NCBI GenBank assembly: GCA_036496605.1
Contig: DASXKV010000058.1
Span: forward strand, 1 to 52,337
DNA: 52,337 bases
Direction: 5' to 3'
Origin: Gemmatimonadaceae bacterium
Lineage (GTDB): Bacteria; Gemmatimonadota; Gemmatimonadetes; Gemmatimonadales; Gemmatimonadaceae
In this document: piece after piece, positions 23,419 through 35,109 of the stretch
How the letters are laid out: each line of letters opens with the position of its first letter
How positions within the stretch are numbered: position 1 is the first letter of the stretch
Translations under genes and position numbers: made by a program
Notes under the pieces: model-generated
Told to the model about the DNA's origin: nothing
The model's database searches: none
The model's input: only the letters and a program-made list of their open reading frames with translations

Positions 23419-23931
23419 TCAGAAATAAACGAGGGCGCTCACGCGACCCCAGGGCTCGAGACTGGTCTGCGTAGCTCCGAACGGCTGCGTACTACCTGCG
23501 AACGGGCCGAGCAATTCGTGCAAGTGGTCGTACACGATTCCCGTCTCGCCGGACACCCCGAAGCGCTTATCGAGCGCGTAGCGAGCGCCGAAGATTCCGA
23601 CGACGTTCCACTCCTTCGGCGCATCCGACTCCGAGTACCACGCATAACCGCCCCGCAGGCCGAGGTACGGTGTCAACGAGCCTGACGGTTGCACGGGAAA
23701 AAGCGCGCTTCCGCCGAAGCCAAGTCGGGTCTGATGGCCGATGTCTCCGCCGATATGCACGAATGTGAAATCGGGACGCAGGTCCAGCTTGCTGTTGACG
23801 TGCCAGAGGATGGCCAGTGCCGCGGGAATTCCCAGATCGACGGCGACGCGATGGTTCTCCTGAGCGCCGGCGGCCGATGCCGCGATCCCGAGCAATGCCG
23901 ATACGTTCGCCAGTCTCCACATCAGATACAT
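23419..23931 (-). CDS. Small outer-membrane beta-barrel-like protein
   Basis: The protein is 170 residues. A signal peptide (ALLGIAASAAGAQ) is followed by alternating hydrophobic strands (LDLRPDFTFVHIGG, LTPYLGLRGGYAWYSE, RFGVSGETGIVYDHL) and a C-terminal aromatic residue (VSALVYF), the pattern of an eight-stranded barrel. The ATG at 23931, with GGAG eight bases upstream, is chosen over the extended frame to 24117. It lies at the end of the exopolysaccharide gene cluster on the same strand, but 196 gene-free bases separate it from the GT2 gene, so linkage is uncertain. Confidence 0.65.
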   Translation of the reverse strand: MYLMWRLANVSALLGIAASAAGAQENHRVAVDLGIPAALAILWHVNSKLDLRPDFTFVHIGGDIGHQTRLGFGGSALFPVQPSGSLTPYLGLRGGYAWYSESDAPKEWNVVGIFGARYALDKRFGVSGETGIVYDHLHELLGPFAGSTQPFGATQTSLEPWGRVSALVYF

Positions 23932-24127
23932 AGCGAGTCTCCGAGGGAAGGGGGAGCCGTAAATACATAAACGCTCAACGATCGCACAACGAGCGCTTCC
24001 TCGCAAACCGGAAGGGACAAATCGGCCAGCCGATGGGACAGAACTACGGCTGATCTTGCCTAGGCGCTGCCGGACGTTATCGTAGAAAGAAATCGAGCGG
24101 AGCGCGCACAAGCGCACGGCCTGCTCG

Positions 24128-25552
24128 TCACGCCGCTTTGCGCGTCTCGGTATCCGAGCTCCCGAACCCCTCGCGCTGCATCACGCCCCAGCCTCGATCG
24201 CCGCGCGCGAGGTGCCAGAATGCCTTGAGCCGGAAGAACAACGTCAGCTGGCGGTACCCGAACGCCTCGATCACCGCGGTGAACAGCAGTCGCAGGACGT
24301 CGCCAGGTCGCCGGTAGCGGTGGAAGCTCACCTCCTCGAGCAGAATCGCCCACACGCTCAACAACATTCCGTACAGCACCACGACCGAGAGAAAGAGCCA
24401 CAGGAAGTTGAAATCGACGGCGCCGAACACCAGGCCCGCGGCGACGCCCAGATAGCCGAGGGCTTCGATCGCCGGCGACAATGCCTCCCCGAAGAGGAAG
24501 AACGGATACGCGAGGACACCGATCGCTCCATAGCGGAAATTGAAGAGCAGATCGCGATGCACCCACAGCGTTTCCAGCAAGCCACGGTGCCACCGTTCTC
24601 GCTGACGGCCGAGTACTCGCACTGAGGATGGCACCTCCGTCCACGCGACGGGGTCGGGGATGAACGACGTCGTATCCGAGAGGTGATGCTCGCGGAGATA
24701 TCGCTGCAGCCGGACGACGAGGTCCATGTCCTCCGTCACGCTGCCGGTGCGATAGCCTCTGATCGCGAGCAGGTGCGCTCGCTTGAACAGCCCGAATGCA
24801 CCGGAGATGATCAGATTGCCACCAAGTCTGTTCCAACCAAGACGGCCGAACAAAAAGGCGCGGAGATACTCCAGCACTTGTATGGAGGGCAGCAAGCGCT
24901 TGTCGACGCGTGCTTCGACGACACGTCCGTGCGCAATCGTGCACGCGTTGGCGACTCGGATCGTCCCGCCGACCGCCGCGACTGGCTTGCCTAACAAGAA
25001 CGGCCGAGCCAGTCGCAACAATGCGTCTGGTTCGATCAGCGTGTCGGCATCGACGGCAAGCACGTAGGGGAATCGCGCCGCATTGAGTGCTGCATTCAAC
25101 GCGTCGGCCTTGCCGCCATTCTCCTTGTCGATCACGAGCAGCTTCGAGTAGCGGCGCGAGCGGTAATACGCCCGGACCGTCGACGTGGGCACGCTGATCA
25201 TGAACGCCGGCGGTACCTGGTAGAGATCGAACGCCTCGATGAGTCGCTTCATCATCGAATCCGTCGAGCCATCGTTGACGAGCACCACCTCATGATACGG
25301 ATACTGCAATGTCAGGAACGAGGTCATGCTCTCGACAATTGTTCGCTCCTCGTTATGCGCCGGAACGAGAATGCTCAACGGTGGCAGCGCCTCCGTTCCG
25401 AGCACGAGCGTCAGATGCTCGTCCTCGGCGAGATGCCAGTGCGACCAGAGCTCGGGAATGGACAAGAGCAGCAGCAAGGCGTAGAACGAGTTCAACGCCA
25501 ACATGTACGTGAGCGCGAAGCGATCCACCCACTGCAGCAGCGTCGCGATCAT
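24128..25552 (-). CDS. GT2 membrane glycosyltransferase, polysaccharide synthase (PgaC/IcaA-like)
   Basis: The protein is 474 residues. After an N-terminal membrane helix (LALNSFYALLLLLSI), the GT-A domain shows ILVPAHNEE, the Asp in LVNDGSTD, the DxD in LAVDADT, the TED in SVTEDMDL, and the processivity motif RQRERW (Q/RxxRW). At least three C-terminal helices follow. This is the build of processive beta-glycan synthases such as PgaC/IcaA, which polymerise and translocate a chain across the inner membrane. The start overlaps the stop of the HEAT gene (ATGA), so it is translationally coupled. The sugar is unknown. The nearby glycosidase and TPR-barrel genes look like the periplasmic and outer-membrane partners. 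Confidence 0.85.
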   Translation of the reverse strand: MIATLLQWVDRFALTYMLALNSFYALLLLLSIPELWSHWHLAEDEHLTLVLGTEALPPLSILVPAHNEERTIVESMTSFLTLQYPYHEVVLVNDGSTDSMMKRLIEAFDLYQVPPAFMISVPTSTVRAYYRSRRYSKLLVIDKENGGKADALNAALNAARFPYVLAVDADTLIEPDALLRLARPFLLGKPVAAVGGTIRVANACTIAHGRVVEARVDKRLLPSIQVLEYLRAFLFGRLGWNRLGGNLIISGAFGLFKRAHLLAIRGYRTGSVTEDMDLVVRLQRYLREHHLSDTTSFIPDPVAWTEVPSSVRVLGRQRERWHRGLLETLWVHRDLLFNFRYGAIGVLAYPFFLFGEALSPAIEALGYLGVAAGLVFGAVDFNFLWLFLSVVVLYGMLLSVWAILLEEVSFHRYRRPGDVLRLLFTAVIEAFGYRQLTLFFRLKAFWHLARGDRGWGVMQREGFGSSDTETRKAA

Positions 25553-26616
25553 GCTTCGGCCAACTCGACGACGGCGCCATCGGAGAGGCCGCTCACCATC
25601 GCCGCCATATCGGCGGCGAAGCGATCCGGCCGTTCGCGCGCGAGCCGCAGCGCACGACGTCCGACCTCGCCGAGCTGTGCGAGCGAGAGGGCCGACCGGA
25701 AGCGCACCCACCACGACCGATCGGCGAGAGCAAAGCTCAGGTCAGCGATGGCATCGCTGGCGCCAACGGTGCCCAGGCCACGCGCCGCCTGCGCGCGCAC
25801 GCGCCAATCGCTGTCGTGCATCATCTCACGCAGCACGGCTTCGGCGTCGGGGTGCACGTAGCGTCGCATTGCACGCGCTGCCGATATGCGCATCTCGACG
25901 ACCGGATGATTGCTGAATGCGATCAGTGGGGCGAGACAGCGCAAATCGGCGATGTTTTCCGCGAGCGTGATCCAGACTTGCAGCTTCGCCATCGGCGCAA
26001 CGGGAACGAGCCGTTCGAGCAGCGCCGGCACGGTGTGCTTCCAGTTCTCGCGCAGAACGCGGAGCTGGAATACGCGAACGATGGGTGGTCGCGTGTGAAG
26101 CGTATCGAGCACGTGCTCGATGAGCATGGCGTCGCCGACGCGCGTTAGGCAGGTGCTCGCCGCGGCCTGCACGGCGGCGTGCGCATCGCCGAGCAACTGC
26201 CGCAGTAGCGTCCGGTCGCGAACGCTGCCGACGACGGCGAGCAATCGCGCGGCGTCGAGCCGCCGCCACCACCAACGCGAGCCGGCTTGCGCGAGGATAC
26301 GCCGCACCCAGCGATCCTCGCGCAGCGATCGCGCCAACTGAGCCACCTGTTCCGGTGCGGTCTTCGACGCGACGTGCATCGTGAGTTGGTCGAGCGCTTC
26401 GCGCTCCGGAAGCCTTCGCAGGACATTCGCGAGATCGGCTGCCGATCCGATGCCGAGAAGCCATCGCTGGAGCGGTTCGGCAACTCTGTTGGCGGCAGAC
26501 GTCGCGCGCTGTGCGCGAATGCTCTGACGCGCCCGATTCACGAAGAGCAGCAGAAGCAACAGACCGAAGAAGATTCCCTGCACGATCGCGACGACGAGAA
26601 TTACGGAACTTCTCAT
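25549..26616 (-). CDS. Membrane-anchored HEAT-repeat protein
   Basis: The protein is 355 residues. A single N-terminal helix (ILVVAIVQGIFFGLLLLLLF) is followed by a helical array with HEAT-like units, for example RRLDAARLLAVVGSVRDR, DAHAAVQAAASTCLTRVGDA, NHPVVEMRISAARAMRRYVH and DSDWRVRAQAARGLGTVGAS. It probably scaffolds a complex at the inner-membrane face. Its start overlaps the stop of the Hpt-REC gene and its stop overlaps the start of the GT2 synthase, both by ATGA, so the three proteins should be made in fixed ratio. That suggests it bridges the receiver protein and the synthase. Direct function unknown. Confidence 0.75.
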   Translation of the reverse strand: MRSSVILVVAIVQGIFFGLLLLLLFVNRARQSIRAQRATSAANRVAEPLQRWLLGIGSAADLANVLRRLPEREALDQLTMHVASKTAPEQVAQLARSLREDRWVRRILAQAGSRWWWRRLDAARLLAVVGSVRDRTLLRQLLGDAHAAVQAAASTCLTRVGDAMLIEHVLDTLHTRPPIVRVFQLRVLRENWKHTVPALLERLVPVAPMAKLQVWITLAENIADLRCLAPLIAFSNHPVVEMRISAARAMRRYVHPDAEAVLREMMHDSDWRVRAQAARGLGTVGASDAIADLSFALADRSWWVRFRSALSLAQLGEVGRRALRLARERPDRFAADMAAMVSGLSDGAVVELAEA

Positions 26617-27542
26617 GCCGCCCCGGCCCCGCCGCTCCGCCGGCACCGCTCGAGCCAGGAAGGAATCTTTGCCATGAGAATCCGGAGATTCACGGGCTTG
26701 GGCACGTAATCGATGGCGCCTGCCCGGTACGCGCGGAGCTGCTCTGCCTCACCGCTGCGAGCCGTGAGAAAGACGGTCGCGAACACCCCCGGTCGCTCGA
26801 CGCGGAGCCGCTCGTGCAGCGAAAACCCGTCGAGTCCGGGGAGATCGACGTCGAGCAGGATGATCGGGATTCGCGGACCCACCGGCAGCGATAACAACCC
26901 GGTCAGCGCGTCCGGTCCCGTCGCATAGTGCATGAATGTGAATCCGGCCGACTCGAGGGCGTACCGCAGCATCTCGACGAACGTGGCGTCGTCCTCGACG
27001 ATGATGAGATCGGGGCACGCCTCCACTCGCTCGGTGCGCGCCGAGTCGTCTCGCGACGCGGCTGACGATGTCGGGGTCGAGATATCGAGGGGAGGCGCGT
27101 AGGCCGGACCGAGCACACAGGCCTCCAGTGCATTGGCGAATTCCGCCGTCATCGCCGCTCGGCGATCGACGTCGAGCCCGGGATCGGTTACCCAGCGGAT
27201 CGCCGCTTCCTCGAGCTCACCAGCGAGGCGACTTGCCTCGGGAAAGCCGAAGGATCCCGCCGCGCCATGCACGCGATGCAGCTCGCGTCGCAGCGCTTCG
27301 ACGACCTCCGGCGCGCTCGCAATCACCGCGAGTTGAGAGGATAGCCGACGCAGCGCCGCGACGGTGTTCGCAGTCGTGGCGCGATAACGCTCGCGCAGTA
27401 TGCGGAGCGTTTCGGTCGTGTCGGAGCTCGACGGAGAACGACTGTCCAAGGGGCGTTGCCGCCGGTAATGGGTGTTCGTCGCATGAGACCCCGCCCCCAC
27501 TCCACGCAAGGCTCCATCGCCCCGCGACTCACAGCGTCTCAT
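26613..27542 (-). CDS. Hpt-receiver phosphorelay protein
   Basis: The product is up to 309 residues. An Hpt domain (about 45-140) has the phospho-acceptor His89 in LHRVHGAAGSFGF. After a Ser/Thr-rich linker, a receiver domain (about 175-300) has LIIVEDDA, the phospho-acceptor Asp in LLDVDLPGLDG, the Thr in VFLTARS and the Lys in YVPKPVN. The first 35 residues look non-conserved, so the real start may be further in. The combination Hpt plus REC lacks an output domain, so it should relay signal to or from partners: the divergent hybrid kinase at 27959 and the synthase complex encoded downstream. It is divergent from the receiver gene at 27587 across 44 bases. Confidence 0.8.
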   Translation of the reverse strand: MRRCESRGDGALRGVGAGSHATNTHYRRQRPLDSRSPSSSDTTETLRILRERYRATTANTVAALRRLSSQLAVIASAPEVVEALRRELHRVHGAAGSFGFPEASRLAGELEEAAIRWVTDPGLDVDRRAAMTAEFANALEACVLGPAYAPPLDISTPTSSAASRDDSARTERVEACPDLIIVEDDATFVEMLRYALESAGFTFMHYATGPDALTGLLSLPVGPRIPIILLDVDLPGLDGFSLHERLRVERPGVFATVFLTARSGEAEQLRAYRAGAIDYVPKPVNLRILMAKIPSWLERCRRSGGAGAA

Positions 27543-27586
27543 CCCGTCGACAAGACTGATCGGACCACCCGAGCGTCACCGAAGTC

Positions 27587-27952
27587 ATGCGCCTGCTTTG
27601 CGCCGATGACGAAGAGGACATACGCACCATTTTGCAGCTGGCGTTGAGCCTCGACCCCGAGCTGGAGGTCGAGCTCGTCGACTCCGGCGAGGCTGCCCTC
27701 GCGCGCGCTCGCGCGGGCCGCTTCGACGCGATCGTTCTCGATGGCATGATGCCCGGTCTGGACGGCTACGAAACCTGCCGCCGGCTCAAGTCGGACCCAT
27801 CGACCGCCAGCGTTCCAGTGGTATTCCTCACCGCGAAAACCCAGCGGGGCGAAGTTGAGCAAGCGCTCAAGCTCGGCGCCGTGGCTTGCCTCATGAAGCC
27901 GTTCGACCCCATGACGTTGGCCGCCGAGCTCCGCGCGGCGCTGGCGAAGTAG
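27587..27952 (+). CDS. Single-domain response regulator
   Basis: The product is 121 residues, receiver only: the acidic pair in CADDEED, phospho-acceptor Asp52 in IVLDGMMPGLDG, the Thr in VFLTAKT and Lys104 in CLMKPFDP. It lies 6 bases before the hybrid kinase gene and belongs to the same operon. With the kinase's own receiver and the divergent Hpt-REC protein it makes up a His-Asp-His-Asp relay. No output domain is present, so it acts by protein contact or as a phosphate sink. Confidence 0.9.
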   Translation: MRLLCADDEEDIRTILQLALSLDPELEVELVDSGEAALARARAGRFDAIVLDGMMPGLDGYETCRRLKSDPSTASVPVVFLTAKTQRGEVEQALKLGAVACLMKPFDPMTLAAELRAALAK

Positions 27953-27958
27953 GCGCGC

Positions 27959-29458
27959 ATGGCAGATCGACGATCGAGCGACGAGACGCGCCGCGAGCGT
28001 GAAGCGCTCTTCCGGAGCCTCTCCAGCGCCGCAAGCGAGGGGATCACGATCGTCGTCGATGACCGGGTCGCCGAGGCGAACGACGCCTTCGGCAGGCTGT
28101 TCGGCTACCAGGCGAGTGAAGTGCTCGACCGACCACTCCTGGATTTCATCGCGCCGGAACTGCGCGATGCCGTTGTGCGCCAGATGATACTTGCGACCGA
28201 AAAACCGTACGATGCGCGCGGTCGTCGCAAAGATGGCTCGACGTTCGACATCGAGCTCACGATTCATCGCGTCACGTTCCGGGAAGGCGTTGCCTGGGGT
28301 TGTCGTGTGCGAGACATCACCGAGCGCAAGGAAATCGATCGAATCAAGACTGAATTCGTGTCGATCGTCTCACACGAGCTGCGCACGCCACTGACATCGA
28401 TTCGCGGTTCGCTCGGTCTCATGGAGGCCGGAGCGGTTGGTGAACTGCCGCCCAAGGCGCGTGATCTCGCGCGCATCGCGCGCCAGAACGCCGACCGGCT
28501 GATTCGACTCATCAACGACATCCTCGACCTCGACAAAATCGAGGCGGGCAAAGTCCAGTTGCAGATCGCGGCGCTCGATCCCGCCGATATTGTCGAGTCG
28601 ACGATCGCCGAGCTCCGCGGAATGGCGATGCTATACAAGGTGTCGATGACGACCCAGGTCGATTGCCGCGACCGCATTGCCGCGGACCGAGACCGCGTTG
28701 TCCAGGTGCTCACCAACCTGGTGTCGAACGCGCTCAAGTTCTCGCCTGAAGGCGGGGCTGTCGCCGTCTCGCTCGGAACGGGCGTGTCCGGCTTCGTACG
28801 CATCGCCGTGCGCGATCACGGACAGGGCATCGCACCCGAGCAGATCAAGAAACTCTTCACACCGTTCGAGCAGCTCGAGGAGGCCAACACGCGTCGTCGC
28901 GGTGGCACAGGACTCGGGCTCGCGATCTCGCGCTCGCTCGTCGAACAGCAGGGCGGACGCATCGGCGTGGAATCGACGGTTGGGCAGGGAAGTGAGTTCT
29001 GGTTCGAGCTGCCACTCGTGCCCGCGCCGGGCGTGGACGACGTACGCACAGCCGACGAAGGTGCACCGGGCGTGCTCGTCGTCGAGGACGATGACGCCGT
29101 GGCGCGGGTGCTCGGCATCATGATTCGGCGCGACGGTCACAGCGTCACGCGCGCGAGCACGCTCGCCGAGGCTCGTCAGGCACTCGCTGCATCACAAAAG
29201 CCCTCCGTCATTCTGCTCGACATGAAGCTGCCTGACGGAAGCGGGCTCGATCTGCTCGACGAGATCGCCGGAACGCCAGGCCTCGAGCAACTGCCCGTCG
29301 TCGTGCTCTCCGGCGTCGAGCCTTCATTCGATCATCGCACGCGCAACGATCGCGTGGTCGAGTGGCTCATCAAGCCCTTCGCCGAGCGGGAGCTGCTCCG
29401 TGCGCTGCGCGACGCAATCGGCGACGAGCAAAACGCGGCGCGGCGTCGCTCCGCATGA
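27959..29458 (+). CDS. PAS-containing hybrid histidine kinase
   Basis: The protein is 499 residues with no transmembrane helix, so it is a soluble sensor. A PAS domain (about 15-125, GITIVVDDRVAEANDAFGRL) leads into HisKA with SHELRTPL (His139). The ATPase part has the N-box (Asn257), DHGQGI and GGTGLGL, and a C-terminal receiver (370-490) has phospho-acceptor Asp421 in ILLDMKLPDGSG. It is flanked upstream by a receiver-only gene (6-base gap) and overlaps the glycosidase gene downstream (ATGA). The locus therefore ties a phosphorelay to polysaccharide processing. The signal sensed by the PAS domain cannot be inferred. Confidence 0.93.
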   Translation: MADRRSSDETRREREALFRSLSSAASEGITIVVDDRVAEANDAFGRLFGYQASEVLDRPLLDFIAPELRDAVVRQMILATEKPYDARGRRKDGSTFDIELTIHRVTFREGVAWGCRVRDITERKEIDRIKTEFVSIVSHELRTPLTSIRGSLGLMEAGAVGELPPKARDLARIARQNADRLIRLINDILDLDKIEAGKVQLQIAALDPADIVESTIAELRGMAMLYKVSMTTQVDCRDRIAADRDRVVQVLTNLVSNALKFSPEGGAVAVSLGTGVSGFVRIAVRDHGQGIAPEQIKKLFTPFEQLEEANTRRRGGTGLGLAISRSLVEQQGGRIGVESTVGQGSEFWFELPLVPAPGVDDVRTADEGAPGVLVVEDDDAVARVLGIMIRRDGHSVTRASTLAEARQALAASQKPSVILLDMKLPDGSGLDLLDEIAGTPGLEQLPVVVLSGVEPSFDHRTRNDRVVEWLIKPFAERELLRALRDAIGDEQNAARRRSA

Positions 29459-32187
29459 GCGCATGGCTGCGTGCCGTCGTTGGCGCCGCGGCTCTTGTCG
29501 CGCTGCGCCTAACGGCCGCGGCGCAATCGACGGATGCGGCCTGCTCGTCGCCGGCGAACGATGTAGCCCAGATGGCGGATCGCGGCTGGCTCGCGATGCG
29601 AAGCGCACAACTCGACGAGGCCGACGCACAATTTCGCGCAGCGCTCGCGCGCTGCCCGCGGTATCCGAGCGCAATCATCGGTGTCGCGTACGTCGCGATG
29701 CGCCGCGGCAACGACTCCAGTGCGGCCCACATGTTCGAGCGAGCACTCGCCGTGCAGCCGTCGAATTACGACGCGTTGGTCGGACTCGGCATGCTCGCCT
29801 ATCGGCATGGCGACATGTCGGCAAGCTGGAAGCGCTTCGCCGGCGCTCTCGCCGTCGTTCCCGGCGACTCACTGAGTCTCTGGTATCTCGAGCGGATTCC
29901 TCAAGCGCTCGACAGCCTGCGGTTGCCGCCGCCGCCCCGCCCCGCGCACACCATTGTCGTGTCGCGAACCGGCACGCGGATATTCGAGGTGCCCAACGGC
30001 GCTGGCGGCTGGCAGCCAATGTGGGTCAAGGCGATCAACGTCGGCGCGGCGCTTCCGGGAAAACATCCGACCGAGTTCCCTCCCGACGACGGTACCTACG
30101 AAGAATGGATCGAGCTCGCCGCACGCATGAACGCGAACGCGCTGCGCGTATACACGATTCATCCGCCGCACTTCTATCGTGCACTCGCACGGTGGAACGT
30201 TGCCCATCCGGCGAATCCAATCTGGCTCATTCAGGGTGTGTGGACGGAGCTACCTCCCGGCAGGAAGCGGGAGCGATACGACGACGCAGCGTGGAATCAA
30301 GCATTCTTCGGCGAGATGAAGCGCGTGGTCGATCTCGTGCACGGCCGCGCTGTGATTCCACATCGATCGGGACACGCAGCGGGGATTTACGCCGTCGACG
30401 TCTCAAGATGGACATTGGCTTACATCATCGGGCGTGAATGGGAGCCGTACTCGGTTGTTGAATTCGCATCGCGACACCGTTCGCAATCCTCGTATCGCGG
30501 CAGATATCTCACGATCGAGGGAGGCAACGCCGTCGACGTCTGGCTTGCGCGCGTCGCCGATCGGATGATCGGCTACGAGATGGACGCCTATAACGAGCAG
30601 CGCCCGCTCGCGTACGCCAATTGGCCAACGCTCGACCCGCTCGTGCACCCAACGGAGAGCACGCTCGCCGAGGAAGATTCCATCCGGCGCGTGCGACACG
30701 AGATCGTCCCCGAGCAGCCGAAGGAATACGACAACGACGCCATCGGCCTCGACGCGGCGCTCGTTAGGCCGACGTCCGCCTATCCTGCCGGCATCTTCGC
30801 ATCCTTTCACGCGTATCCATACTATCCGGACTTCATCTCCTACGACCGCGTCTATTCCGGCGCCCGCGACGCTGACGGGCCGAGCAACTACTACGGCTAC
30901 CTCCGCGATCTCGTGCGTCACTTTGGCTCCATGCCCGTGATGATCTCGGAATACGGCGTGCCATCGTCACGGGGAATCGCCCACCTCCAGCCACAGGGCT
31001 GGCACCACGGCGGCCACTCGGAAACGGAACAAGCGGAAATAAACGCTCGCCTCACGCGCGACATCTACGCGTCCGGCGCTGCCGGCGCGGGCCTCTTCTC
31101 ACTCATCGACGAATGGTTCAAGAAGAACTGGACCGTGATCGACTTCGAGTATCCCGCCGAACGCAATCGCCTGTGGCTCAACTCGCTCGACGCCGAGCAG
31201 AATTACGGCGTAATCGCCATGCGGCCCGGGCGAAAGGATTCGACCATTGTGATCGACGGACGCGCCGATGACTGGGTGGGACGACCACCGTTGTACAGAG
31301 GCGGCGACGATCCGCAGCTGCTCGCGGCCTTGCGTCTTCGCTCGTTCACCGTCGCGAGCGACGAAGCGTATCTCTATCTACGCGTGGATGCGGGTGCCAT
31401 CGATTGGCAGCACGCTCACTACATCATCGGTATCGATACCCATGGTGCATCGTTAGGTGACAGGGTGCTGCCCATCACCGGCGCACGCTCTCCCGTGGGT
31501 CTCGAGTTCGTGATCGAGCTGAGTGGGGCAGGCCGGAGCCGGCTGCTTGTCGATCACCCGTACAACCTCTATCGCGACGCGACAATCACGGGCAGCAAGC
31601 CCCGGGCGGTTCAGCAGATCTATAACTGGCCGTTCCGCTCAGTCGCGAACAGCGCCGGACGCTACGACACGATCCACGTCGTCACCAACCGGCGACGATT
31701 GGGCCGCGACGGCACCGTGTACCCCTCACTCGCAGTCGATCGGAGTCGTCTCCTCTTTGCGCGACAGCCAGACAACAGTCTCGCCGACTGGTATGCCGAC
31801 AGCCTAACGGGCGTGATCGAGATACGTATTCCCTGGGGGATGCTCAACGTGCTCGATCCGTCGTCGCGGCTCGTCCTTCGTGGAACTAAAAAGGGAGACG
31901 TCGCCGGCGTCGTGACTGACGGCTTCCGCTTCGTGATTCAGAGCTACGACCCCGCGCAGCCCTCGGAGAGCGGCGACCGCTTGCCCCGAGGGAGCTCGCG
32001 CGAGTTTTTCGGCAGACCCTCGACATGGACATGGCCAACGTGGGAGGAACCACGATGGTACGCCGAGGTAAAGCCGCAATTCGAAACGATGCGTCGCGCA
32101 TTTGGCGAGATTCCCAACACGCCGGCGAACCTCGCCGCTTCGCCTAACGCGATCGCCGCTCCGGCTAGAGCCGCACGCGCCCCTTGA
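29455..32187 (+). CDS. Secreted TPR plus clan GH-A glycosidase
   Basis: The protein is 910 residues. A signal peptide (VVGAAALVALRLTAAAQ) precedes TPR repeats (about 40-160; DEADAQFRAALARCPRYPSA, AAHMFERALAVQPSNYDALV). A TIM-barrel-like region (about 180-590) has YIIGREWEPYS and MPVMISEYGVPSS, whose glutamates fit the acid/base and nucleophile of clan GH-A enzymes. The last 300 residues form beta-sandwich-like domains (RADDWVGRPPLYRGGDD). The ATG overlaps the kinase stop. It probably cuts or edits the polymer made by the GT2 synthase, by analogy with PgaB and PslG. The 3' end overlaps the convergent barrel gene by 23 bases. Confidence 0.75.
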   Translation: MSAWLRAVVGAAALVALRLTAAAQSTDAACSSPANDVAQMADRGWLAMRSAQLDEADAQFRAALARCPRYPSAIIGVAYVAMRRGNDSSAAHMFERALAVQPSNYDALVGLGMLAYRHGDMSASWKRFAGALAVVPGDSLSLWYLERIPQALDSLRLPPPPRPAHTIVVSRTGTRIFEVPNGAGGWQPMWVKAINVGAALPGKHPTEFPPDDGTYEEWIELAARMNANALRVYTIHPPHFYRALARWNVAHPANPIWLIQGVWTELPPGRKRERYDDAAWNQAFFGEMKRVVDLVHGRAVIPHRSGHAAGIYAVDVSRWTLAYIIGREWEPYSVVEFASRHRSQSSYRGRYLTIEGGNAVDVWLARVADRMIGYEMDAYNEQRPLAYANWPTLDPLVHPTESTLAEEDSIRRVRHEIVPEQPKEYDNDAIGLDAALVRPTSAYPAGIFASFHAYPYYPDFISYDRVYSGARDADGPSNYYGYLRDLVRHFGSMPVMISEYGVPSSRGIAHLQPQGWHHGGHSETEQAEINARLTRDIYASGAAGAGLFSLIDEWFKKNWTVIDFEYPAERNRLWLNSLDAEQNYGVIAMRPGRKDSTIVIDGRADDWVGRPPLYRGGDDPQLLAALRLRSFTVASDEAYLYLRVDAGAIDWQHAHYIIGIDTHGASLGDRVLPITGARSPVGLEFVIELSGAGRSRLLVDHPYNLYRDATITGSKPRAVQQIYNWPFRSVANSAGRYDTIHVVTNRRRLGRDGTVYPSLAVDRSRLLFARQPDNSLADWYADSLTGVIEIRIPWGMLNVLDPSSRLVLRGTKKGDVAGVVTDGFRFVIQSYDPAQPSESGDRLPRGSSREFFGRPSTWTWPTWEEPRWYAEVKPQFETMRRAFGEIPNTPANLAASPNAIAAPARAARAP

Positions 32188-33718
32188 GCGACAGCGTATA
32201 CGCTCGGTAGTCTGCCGAGCTGATCGTCGTCGGCGACGCGACGTTCGCGAAGCCACCGCTCAGCGACCACTCGAGTCCAGGCGCCGGACGATAAGCAATC
32301 GCCACACTCACACGCTGCGCGAATCGACCCACGTGTGAGTCGTCGAAGGCGACGATCGTCTGATCGCCGAGGCCGAGCTCCGAATCCAAGCCCCAACCGA
32401 GCTCGCCGCCCAGGTGTAAGCGTCCGCTCATTTCCGCCAGCAGATATCGCTTGGGTGCGAAGTATCCGTCGAACGCGGCGTGATCGTACTCAAAGCCGCG
32501 CACGGTCGCGGCGATCGACGCGAACTTCGTCGCCGACCAGCGCAGCGATCCCGATCCCGCAAGCCGACTATTCGGCCCACTTCCGCCGCTCAGATGCGTC
32601 CAACTTGCACCGCCTCCGATCCCCAGTCGCGGCCGGAGCGTCACGTCGGCATCGGCGTCCATGCTCGTCGTCGCGATGCCCGCGAGCATCAGCGACGCGG
32701 TCTCGTCGAACGCGGCACGCGTGACGCTGCCGCCTAGCGAGATGGCAGGCGACAGGTGTCCGCTGAGGCGTGCGCTGAGGAGCGGCAGGAGACGCGTTTC
32801 GTCCGGAGCACCTGGCGCACTCGACGCGTCGAGTCGTACCGCACCCGCCTCACCGCGCAGCGTCCATCGGCCATTCATCGGCGACAGGCTGGATGAGGCA
32901 CGCAGCGCCGCCGACGTCCCGTGCTCCGCGCCGAAGTCGGCGACGCGATAGCTCGCATTGGCGAGCAGCCGCGCACTCCACGGCGATGCCAGGCCGCCTC
33001 CCATGACATACGTCGTCGCGCGATTGTCGTCGCTGTCGTCCGTCGTCGTGATCGTCGGTTCGAAGGAGGCCGACAGGGCGACATCGGCCCACTCGAGCTG
33101 AACGCGCGCGTCGGCGTTATTCGGCGCTTCCGCGACGGCGTGCCGCAATGCCTGACGAGTCTCCTCCGGCCGCCCCGCCCATCGCCACACCTGAGCGAGC
33201 GCGACCCACGCATCGGCGTCTTGCGCATGCGTCGAGAGCCAGCCCTCGTAGCGCGCGATCGCTTGTTGCAGCTTGCCGCTCCACGCAACGGCCTGCGCCC
33301 CGAGCAAGGCCGCATCTCGCTCCCGCGGATTACTGGCGAGGACACCGTCGCATATCGCGATTGCCTCGTCATAGTTGCCGCGCCACGCAAGCGTGCGCGC
33401 GAGGCCAATGCGCCCGTCCTCGTCCGCGGGCATCAGTCGTAAGTAAAGTCGAAACAACGATACCGAATGATCGAGATCGTTGCGCCACCCGAGAAGCGTT
33501 GCCATGCGGAAGACCGCGCGGCCGGCGGTCGAGTCCCGGCGCAACACTGCTTGATAGGCCGAGAACGCGTCATCGTATTTCCGTGCGGCCCACGCCTGAT
33601 CGGCAGAGGCGAGCAGGTCTGCGACGCGCGGTTCACTCTGGCCGCGAGCCGCACCGGGCACGGCCGCGGCGAGCGCGACGGCGCCACAAAGCGCGGTAAT
33701 CCGAAGGAATCGGCGCAT
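32165..33718 (-). CDS. TPR-containing outer-membrane beta-barrel protein (YaiO/PgaA-like)
   Basis: The protein is 517 residues. A signal peptide (GAVALAAAVPGAARGQ) is followed by TPR repeats (about 35-210; KYDDAFSAYQAVLRRDSTAG, GKLQQAIARYEGWLSTHAQD, RPEETRQALRHAVAEAPNNA) and a C-terminal region of amphipathic strands rich in Ser/Gly/aromatics, ending YTLSLKGRVRL. TPR plus barrel is the layout of PgaA/BcsC/AlgK-E-type polysaccharide exporters and of YaiO. Facing the synthase/glycosidase genes, it is the natural outer-membrane exporter of the locus. I use the ATG at 33718 (MRRFLRITALCG) over 33745. It converges on the glycosidase, overlapping by 23 bases. Confidence 0.78.
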   Translation of the reverse strand: MRRFLRITALCGAVALAAAVPGAARGQSEPRVADLLASADQAWAARKYDDAFSAYQAVLRRDSTAGRAVFRMATLLGWRNDLDHSVSLFRLYLRLMPADEDGRIGLARTLAWRGNYDEAIAICDGVLASNPRERDAALLGAQAVAWSGKLQQAIARYEGWLSTHAQDADAWVALAQVWRWAGRPEETRQALRHAVAEAPNNADARVQLEWADVALSASFEPTITTTDDSDDNRATTYVMGGGLASPWSARLLANASYRVADFGAEHGTSAALRASSSLSPMNGRWTLRGEAGAVRLDASSAPGAPDETRLLPLLSARLSGHLSPAISLGGSVTRAAFDETASLMLAGIATTSMDADADVTLRPRLGIGGGASWTHLSGGSGPNSRLAGSGSLRWSATKFASIAATVRGFEYDHAAFDGYFAPKRYLLAEMSGRLHLGGELGWGLDSELGLGDQTIVAFDDSHVGRFAQRVSVAIAYRPAPGLEWSLSGGFANVASPTTISSADYRAYTLSLKGRVRL

Positions 33719-33816
33719 ATCCAGAGAGAGGACGCGCCAGCCCAAGCTCGCTTCACGCTCTTGTATTTCGGTTTTTGTTCGGTAAACTTGGGAGAGGCGC
33801 CGAGGGAGGAGGAGTG

Positions 33817-35109
33817 ATGGGAACGGACCTGGATATCGACTCGAAGATCGCGCTGTTGATGACGCTCGCGGCGACGGACGTCGAAGGAATGCCTGGCCGC
33901 GATCCGAGCATGCCCCTGCCGCCTCGGCTCCGCCACGCGATGGAAGTCGGCGCCCTTCGTCCGCTCAATCTCCGCACCGTGCAATCGAGCGGGCCATTTG
34001 GGCGAAAGACGACGCTGCTCCGCATCCTGATGACCAATGCGTGCAGCTTCAACTGCCACTATTGCCCGATGCGGCGCGATCGCGAGATGCCGCGCACGCT
34101 GCTCAAGCCGGAGGAGCTGGTGCGCATCTTCCTCGCCGCGCGGGCGAAGGGCTGGTGCGAGGGTTTGTTCATCACGACGGGTATTCCGGGGCGTCCGGTG
34201 AAGGTGATGGACGATCTCATCACCGTGCTCGAGCTCCTCCGCGACAAGCACCGCTTCACGGGATACATCCACGTCAAGATCCTGCCCGGCGTCGAATCGG
34301 CGCAGGTCGAGCGCATAACGAGTCTCGCGTCGCGTGTCTCGATCAACCTCGAGGCCGCTTGCGGCGAGAGTCTCACGCGGATCGCTCCGGAGAAAAGCCT
34401 AACGACCACGCTGCAGACGCTCGAGCAGGCGCGTAGCCTCGTTGTCCAGGGCCGCGAGGAGCAATTTGCGGGACGCCCGCGCGACGCCCTCCGGCCGGGT
34501 GGCACGGCCGGGATGACGATGCAGCTCGTCGTCGGCGCCACGCCGGACAGCGACCGCACGATCATCGGCAAGGTCGCCGAGCTCTATGCGGGCGGCGGCA
34601 TCCACCATTCGCAGTTCAGCGCGTTCCGGCCGATACGCAATACACCGATGGAAGAGGTGAAAGCGACGCCCGCCCTGCGCGAGCATCGGTTGTATCAGGC
34701 CGACCACCTAATGCGCGAGTACAAGTTCGGCGTCGAGGAGCTCGCGTTCAACGACAGCGGGAACCTCCCGCTCTCGCTCGATCCGAAGATTGCCTGGGCG
34801 CTCTCGCACCCCGAGCGCTTTCCCGTCGAGATTCGCACCGCCTCTCGTGCGCAGCTGCTTCGCGTGCCTGGGATTGGTCCGACGTCAGCACGGCGTATCG
34901 TCGTCGAGCGCGGCCGAACTGTGATTCGTGACCTGCACGATCTTCGCAAGCTGGGCGTCGTCACCGGACGCGCCGCGGGCTTCCTGAGCCTCGCCGGCCG
35001 TCGCCTGCAGAACACGCTCTGGTCCGAGCAACTGGGCTTCTGGCGCCCCGAAGACGAAGTCGGAGTGCCGCACGTGCTGTACGATGTGAGTCCGGGGACG
35101 TTCAGGTGA
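33817..35109 (+). CDS. Putative DNA modification/repair radical SAM protein with HhH domain
   Basis: The protein is 430 residues. The radical SAM cluster is Cys76, Cys80 and Cys83 in NACSFNCHYC, followed by the TIM-barrel-like core (GLFITTGIPGRPVKVMDD). The C-terminus has a helix-hairpin-helix, LLRVPGIGPTSARRIV, typical of DNA contact. This architecture is that of the family usually encoded next to a uracil-DNA-glycosylase-like partner. Here no such gene follows: the next gene is a convergent TonB receptor. The start is fixed by a strong GGAGGAGG just before the ATG at 33817. A TTGTAT/GTAAAC pair upstream is a weak promoter candidate. Confidence 0.88.
   Translation: MGTDLDIDSKIALLMTLAATDVEGMPGRDPSMPLPPRLRHAMEVGALRPLNLRTVQSSGPFGRKTTLLRILMTNACSFNCHYCPMRRDREMPRTLLKPEELVRIFLAARAKGWCEGLFITTGIPGRPVKVMDDLITVLELLRDKHRFTGYIHVKILPGVESAQVERITSLASRVSINLEAACGESLTRIAPEKSLTTTLQTLEQARSLVVQGREEQFAGRPRDALRPGGTAGMTMQLVVGATPDSDRTIIGKVAELYAGGGIHHSQFSAFRPIRNTPMEEVKATPALREHRLYQADHLMREYKFGVEELAFNDSGNLPLSLDPKIAWALSHPERFPVEIRTASRAQLLRVPGIGPTSARRIVVERGRTVIRDLHDLRKLGVVTGRAAGFLSLAGRRLQNTLWSEQLGFWRPEDEVGVPHVLYDVSPGTFR

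Follow-up and report, generated by a model that had tools for sequence, protein, structure and literature searches.

The locus described here, from the 6.0-Mb genome of a soil bacterium (phylum Gemmatimonadota), probably encodes a synthase-dependent exopolysaccharide system that includes its own phosphorelay, one that has lost its c-di-GMP output and whose terminal receiver (REC) would act on a HEAT-repeat protein and its partner synthase; we put the probability of this reading at about 55%. Seven genes for synthesis, export, and signaling span positions 24128 to 33745 of the window, the whole 52,337-nucleotide stretch (contig C58) that was analyzed. In the well-studied synthase-dependent polysaccharide systems, c-di-GMP is the activating signal. 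More tentatively, the synthase may be gated directly by the phosphorylated receiver via a HEAT adaptor, after the diguanylate cyclase within the regulator was excised from its middle; if so, one operon family shows a diffusible second messenger being replaced stepwise by direct phosphoprotein control. A literature search returned no paper on a HEAT-GT2-phosphorelay system, which is weak evidence of novelty.

Gene content and layout

Gene content was established with Pfam and NCBIfam, structure models, and direct reading of the sequence, and agrees with that given in a preliminary description of this DNA (Table 1). The genes form two divergent units, Hpt-REC, HEAT, and GT2 on the minus strand and the single-domain receiver, the hybrid kinase, and the TPR-glycosidase on the plus strand, with called start codons ∼45 bp apart, while the barrel gene is convergent with the glycosidase gene and overlaps it by 23 bp. 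Direct reading confirmed ATGA overlaps at the Hpt-REC/HEAT, HEAT/GT2, and kinase/glycosidase joints and a gap of 6 bp between the lone receiver and the kinase. The tight coupling claimed previously therefore holds for genes on the same strand, but two divergent units and a convergent barrel gene do not make one operon. The start of the system had also been placed at 23419. The open reading frame at 23419 to 23931 begins ∼200 bp past GT2, and none of the related loci contains an equivalent, so we set the start at 24128 and ruled this frame out as a member, its homologue being absent from all syntenic loci. It matches no family and would encode a small protein with a signal-peptide-like start. 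Directly outside the other end, at 33775 to 35109, lies a radical SAM protein near TIGR03916 (302 bits against a curated cut-off of 343.5), a family named after a link with a uracil-DNA glycosylase family. No sigma-70-like promoters were found at the locus, which says little in Gemmatimonadota.

Table 1. Features of the locus, in window coordinates
Feature	Position	Strand	Length (aa)	Key residues	Basis
GT2 processive glycosyltransferase	24128..25552	-	474		Pfam PF13641, 7.6e-22
HEAT-repeat protein, one N-terminal TM helix	25549..26616	-	355		Pfam HEAT_2, 1.5e-27
Hpt-REC protein	26613..27542	-	309	Hpt His89, REC Asp231	Pfam Hpt, Response_reg
Single-domain receiver (lone REC)	27587..27952	+	121	Asp52	Pfam PF00072, 1.3e-26
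PAS-HisKA-HATPase-REC hybrid kinase	27959..29458	+	499	His139, Asp421	Pfam
TPR-glycosidase, clan GH-A	29455..32187	+	910		A2 alignment; fold matches GH157, GH2
TPR + outer-membrane beta-barrel	32165..33745	-	up to 526		Model, PDB matches

The synthase has hydrophobic segments at both its N- and C-terminal ends and carries DAD168, TED273, and QRERW317, the D,D,D/ED and Q(Q/R)xRW motifs of processive membrane GT2 enzymes. Its top NCBIfam match is PgaC_IcaA, at 117 bits against a cut-off of 422, and it reaches 38.6 bits with CelA, where the cut-off is 699. The HEAT protein, aligned with its homologues in the A1 alignment, carries its transmembrane helix at residues 5 to 23, a point absent from the preliminary description, and may serve as the partner of the synthase and as the place where the receiver docks. 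Pfam detected no c-di-GMP domain in either protein (MshEN on the GT2 included), and among all the locus proteins neither of the recognized c-di-GMP receptor domains PilZ and MshEN nor a PgaB-type polysaccharide deacetylase domain; PilZ was found nowhere in the window genome.

The glycosidase consists of a signal peptide, TPRs, a GH-A TIM barrel, and a beta-rich C-terminal domain. In the A2 alignment, Glu330 (GREWEP) and Glu499 (ISEYG; ISEVG in L037) are invariant in 16 homologues, as are D552 and E553. The two glutamates are in line with the places that the acid/base and the nucleophile take in clan GH-A and are putative catalytic residues. With this signal peptide, fold, and pair of residues, the protein is predicted to be active as a periplasmic polymer-modifying enzyme. 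By sequence, only its TPRs found matches in the PDB; by fold, the model matches GH157 (Z 29, 3.0 Å over 310 residues) and GH2 (Z 26). We rejected assigning a sugar specificity from this fold since GH157 (with a laminari-oligosaccharides ligand), GH2, and GH5 (mannosidase) all fit, and the polymer cannot be named for the same reason. The barrel protein has a signal peptide and a TPR superhelix followed by 16 strands (mean pLDDT of the model, 90), and its top solved structures are Escherichia coli BcsC (9b8a, E 1e-15), PelB, and PgaA (4y25); the model thus identifies a TPR-bearing 16-stranded outer-membrane barrel that we predict to be the polysaccharide exporter. In one related locus (L158:2855-7426, minus strand), the glycosidase and the export barrel share a single stop-free frame, possibly a fusion, which fits joint action of the two.

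For the phosphorelay, all of the phospho-accepting residues (Table 1) are intact and the Lys/Thr partner residues of the receivers are also in place, so the complete His-Asp-His-Asp chain described earlier stands at the level of its residues, with phosphotransfer itself predicted. No transmembrane segment was found in the hybrid kinase. A second set, comprising a receiver, a stand-alone Hpt, and a histidine kinase (G000:C16, ∼24232-26605), is the second-best match to the locus kinase and lone receiver and, judging by this similarity, is a paralogous phosphorelay.

Conservation of the linkage in relatives

A search with a HEAT profile found 87 of 395 genomes of the phylum at E 1e-20, the weakest being probably other HEAT proteins. 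The relatives named here are Gemmatimonadetes/Gemmatimonadota MAGs, several with short contigs. From them, 67 loci were picked by HEAT similarity, and the counts that follow cover HEAT-bearing loci only. HEAT is followed directly by GT2 in 65 of the 67 and preceded directly, on the same strand, by a REC-bearing regulator in 59, almost always at a distance of no more than a few dozen bases. Of the other loci, several sit on short contigs or represent a diverged HEAT-GT2 pair in a different setting (L036, L189). That pair forms a diverged subfamily without a regulator, next to an amidase, a GHMP kinase, and a transaldolase. A histidine kinase occurs within 7 kb of HEAT in 18 loci, the glycosidase near it in 16, and the barrel in 18, counts often limited by contig ends. 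In class-level relatives L152 and L157, the whole set runs in one direction, as HK-REC-REC, REC, a REC-GGDEF-REC regulator, HEAT, GT2, glycosidase, and barrel.

Kinases being common, we checked orthology by searching the window genome with the relatives' proteins. The window kinase came out on top with the L152 kinase (292 versus 214 bits) and with the L034 kinase (265 versus 161 bits); the window lone receiver was likewise top with its L152 counterpart, by a small margin of 8 bits (95.5 versus 87.6). The linkage of synthase and phosphorelay is thus real across the phylum, and the synteny check, which the preliminary description had named as a possible refutation, upheld it: these loci are a phylum-wide family in which a complete phosphorelay is coupled to a synthase. 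Gene content, residues, and synteny together support the earlier claim of an exopolysaccharide locus with its own phosphorelay.

Beyond the phylum, a HEAT scan returned mostly unrelated HEAT proteins, and HEAT-GT2 or REC-HEAT pairs were seen only in Elusimicrobiota (L062, L064) and in L051 and L065, records titled Acidobacteria and possibly mislabeled. In L062 and L064, HEAT-GT2 is accompanied by a TPR/outer-membrane-like protein, with a signaling cluster nearby (PAS-HK-REC, REC, REC-GGDEF, REC-HK, and an OmpR-type regulator). The HEAT-GT2 core may therefore reach past Gemmatimonadota into Elusimicrobiota.

The OmpR-type regulator in the L062 cluster bears on where the signal ends. As the preliminary description had stated, there is no transcriptional output domain, all three signaling proteins being free of DNA-binding domains by Pfam, and this leaves room for a DNA-binding response regulator in trans, on which the phosphorelay would end to control transcription, with co-location being a regulatory convenience. 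We consider this improbable, since in Gemmatimonadota loci HEAT, and no DNA-binding protein, is encoded in tight coupling with the receiver protein, and the output in relatives is a GGDEF domain, which acts post-translationally.

Probable loss of the cyclase domain, and the retained terminal receiver

The regulator upstream of HEAT exists in several states. In L152, L157, and L158 it contains three receivers, an Hpt, and a GGDEF, in a class-level relative in the order REC-Hpt-REC-GGDEF-REC with GGEEF intact, and in L160 two receivers, an Hpt, and a GGDEF; all four keep RWGGEEF. In lineages with an intact GGEEF, this architecture makes a dedicated diguanylate cyclase the probable target of the phosphorelay. 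L042, L043, and others have GPNEF, GGADF, or GGPDF in place of this motif, making catalysis doubtful. In L031, L033 to L035, and 12 more, Pfam or a family GGDEF model finds nothing between two receivers. Over its full length, the 165-residue insert at this place can nevertheless be aligned with the degenerate GGDEF sequences (probability 97.4, E 1.2e-11) as well as the intact ones (probability 93.7, E 2e-7), and on these alignments we identify it as a decayed GGDEF. The window, its sister genome, and a distinct order-level clade retain just the Hpt and the C-terminal receiver. The window Hpt-REC is 55 to 58% identical to the Hpt and C-terminal receiver of L031 and L033 as opposed to 25 to 30% to their middle receiver, which suggests that it is the remnant of an Hpt-REC-GGDEF-REC regulator.

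In a HEAT+GT2 tree, from which the long-branched rows of a quick GT2-only tree were left out, the window pair groups with L031 and L033, with their decayed GGDEF, at 95/89, and window and sister lie apart from the second Hpt-REC clade; the two Hpt-REC groups require two changes throughout the bootstrap range. The operon-borne GGDEF is decayed or gone in the window's whole half of the tree. This tree is unrooted; loss is favored over gain because a decayed remnant implies a former GGDEF. Given that orthologous regulators in relatives carry the cyclase domain, the lack of a c-di-GMP module in the window looks like a derived state. Lineages with an intact, mutated, decayed, and deleted cyclase coexist, making a testable series for a swap from messenger to protein control.

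Even though the operon has no cyclase domain here, 11 GGDEF domains remain in the window genome, and c-di-GMP from these other cyclases could still control the synthase, with GT2-HEAT binding it in the absence of a recognized motif and Hpt-REC modulating this or acting elsewhere. Such input in trans is possible since pga has no recognized c-di-GMP-binding motif and yet its GT2 and small membrane partner, PgaC-PgaD, bind c-di-GMP (PMC8461298), and a GGEEF cyclase domain sits inside the operon of relatives. We regard this as unlikely, if the most serious of the alternatives, given that the genome has no PilZ, GT2 and HEAT have no c-di-GMP domain, and the operon GGDEF is absent from the window and decayed or gone across its half of the tree.

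The C-terminal receiver, in contrast to the GGDEF, is retained in all architectures (58 sequences), with the second acidic residue, the Lys, and the Pro in 58/58. Its phospho-Asp is present in 46/58, and no Hpt-REC or Hpt-REC-decayedGGDEF-REC row is without it; most of the losses belong to the degenerate-GGDEF clade or to forms with a single REC, and phosphorylation would therefore be dispensable in the lineages of these 12. Because this receiver occurs in every architecture and its gene is coupled to the HEAT gene, we infer that REC-HEAT is the best candidate pair for a working contact. Direct control from protein to synthase, as proposed in the preliminary description, is plausible since the receiver adjoining HEAT stays when GGDEF is lost. 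Domains have decayed or been deleted repeatedly in this family, and some lineages have a single receiver or no regulator, which could instead mean that the phosphorelay itself is decaying, Hpt-REC being a relic or a phosphate sink and the synthase constitutive. This seems very improbable for a window in which the phospho-accepting residues are all intact and a sister genome that keeps Hpt-REC at 78% and the lone receiver at 91% identity.

We therefore favor signaling through the terminal receiver. The soluble PAS kinase would autophosphorylate at His139 and pass the phosphate to Asp421 of its own receiver, then to Hpt His89, and from there to Asp52 of the lone receiver and/or Asp231 of the Hpt-adjacent receiver. 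In relatives with an intact GGEEF, the terminal protein probably activates its built-in cyclase, providing the synthase with c-di-GMP on the spot. In the lineage of the window, this REC-GGDEF middle part would have decayed and then been deleted, and because of this deletion the signal most likely stops at the terminal receiver, which could contact the membrane-anchored HEAT protein and thereby switch the GT2 synthase. The periplasmic TPR-glycosidase would process or hold the polymer, whose existence the parts of the system suggest, and the TPR-barrel would be its exit.

Comparison with known systems

Like bcs, the locus combines a GT2, a TPR-barrel exporter (BcsC being the top structural match), and a periplasmic glycosidase. 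BcsA carries a C-terminal PilZ and has BcsB as a partner, whereas neither PilZ nor BcsB was found in the locus and its GT2 falls below the CelA cut-off. The order of phosphorelay domains, His-Asp-His-Asp, is that of hybrid-kinase/Hpt/REC phosphorelays of the ArcB, BarA, and TorS type, but here the terminal receiver and the Hpt form one protein, the relay genes are coupled with that of a synthase, and the locus has no DNA-binding output.

The likeness to pgaABCD (poly-N-acetylglucosamine) extends to the top NCBIfam match of the GT2 (PgaC/IcaA), the TPR and 16-strand exporter, a periplasmic carbohydrate-active enzyme, a small membrane partner of the synthase, and the lack of PilZ in both. The locus differs in its GT2, which scores far below the PgaC cut-off, in having no deacetylase among its proteins, in a HEAT protein instead of PgaD, in another type of glycosidase, and in the built-in phosphorelay. 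Of the contrast with pga, bcs, and pel drawn earlier, the missing deacetylase thus stands, but the missing PilZ does not separate the locus from pga, which is itself PilZ-free (PMC8461298).

The closest known synthase with a dedicated cyclase is NfrB with DgcJ: NfrB binds c-di-GMP via MshEN, and E. coli NfrA/NfrB is served by the cyclase DgcJ (PMC8669469). In both systems, a GT2 exopolysaccharide synthase goes with a particular diguanylate cyclase and cyclase genes are linked in relatives, here L152 and L157. Unlike NfrB, the locus has no MshEN, and its cyclase is fused into the phosphorelay protein of relatives and is missing in the window.
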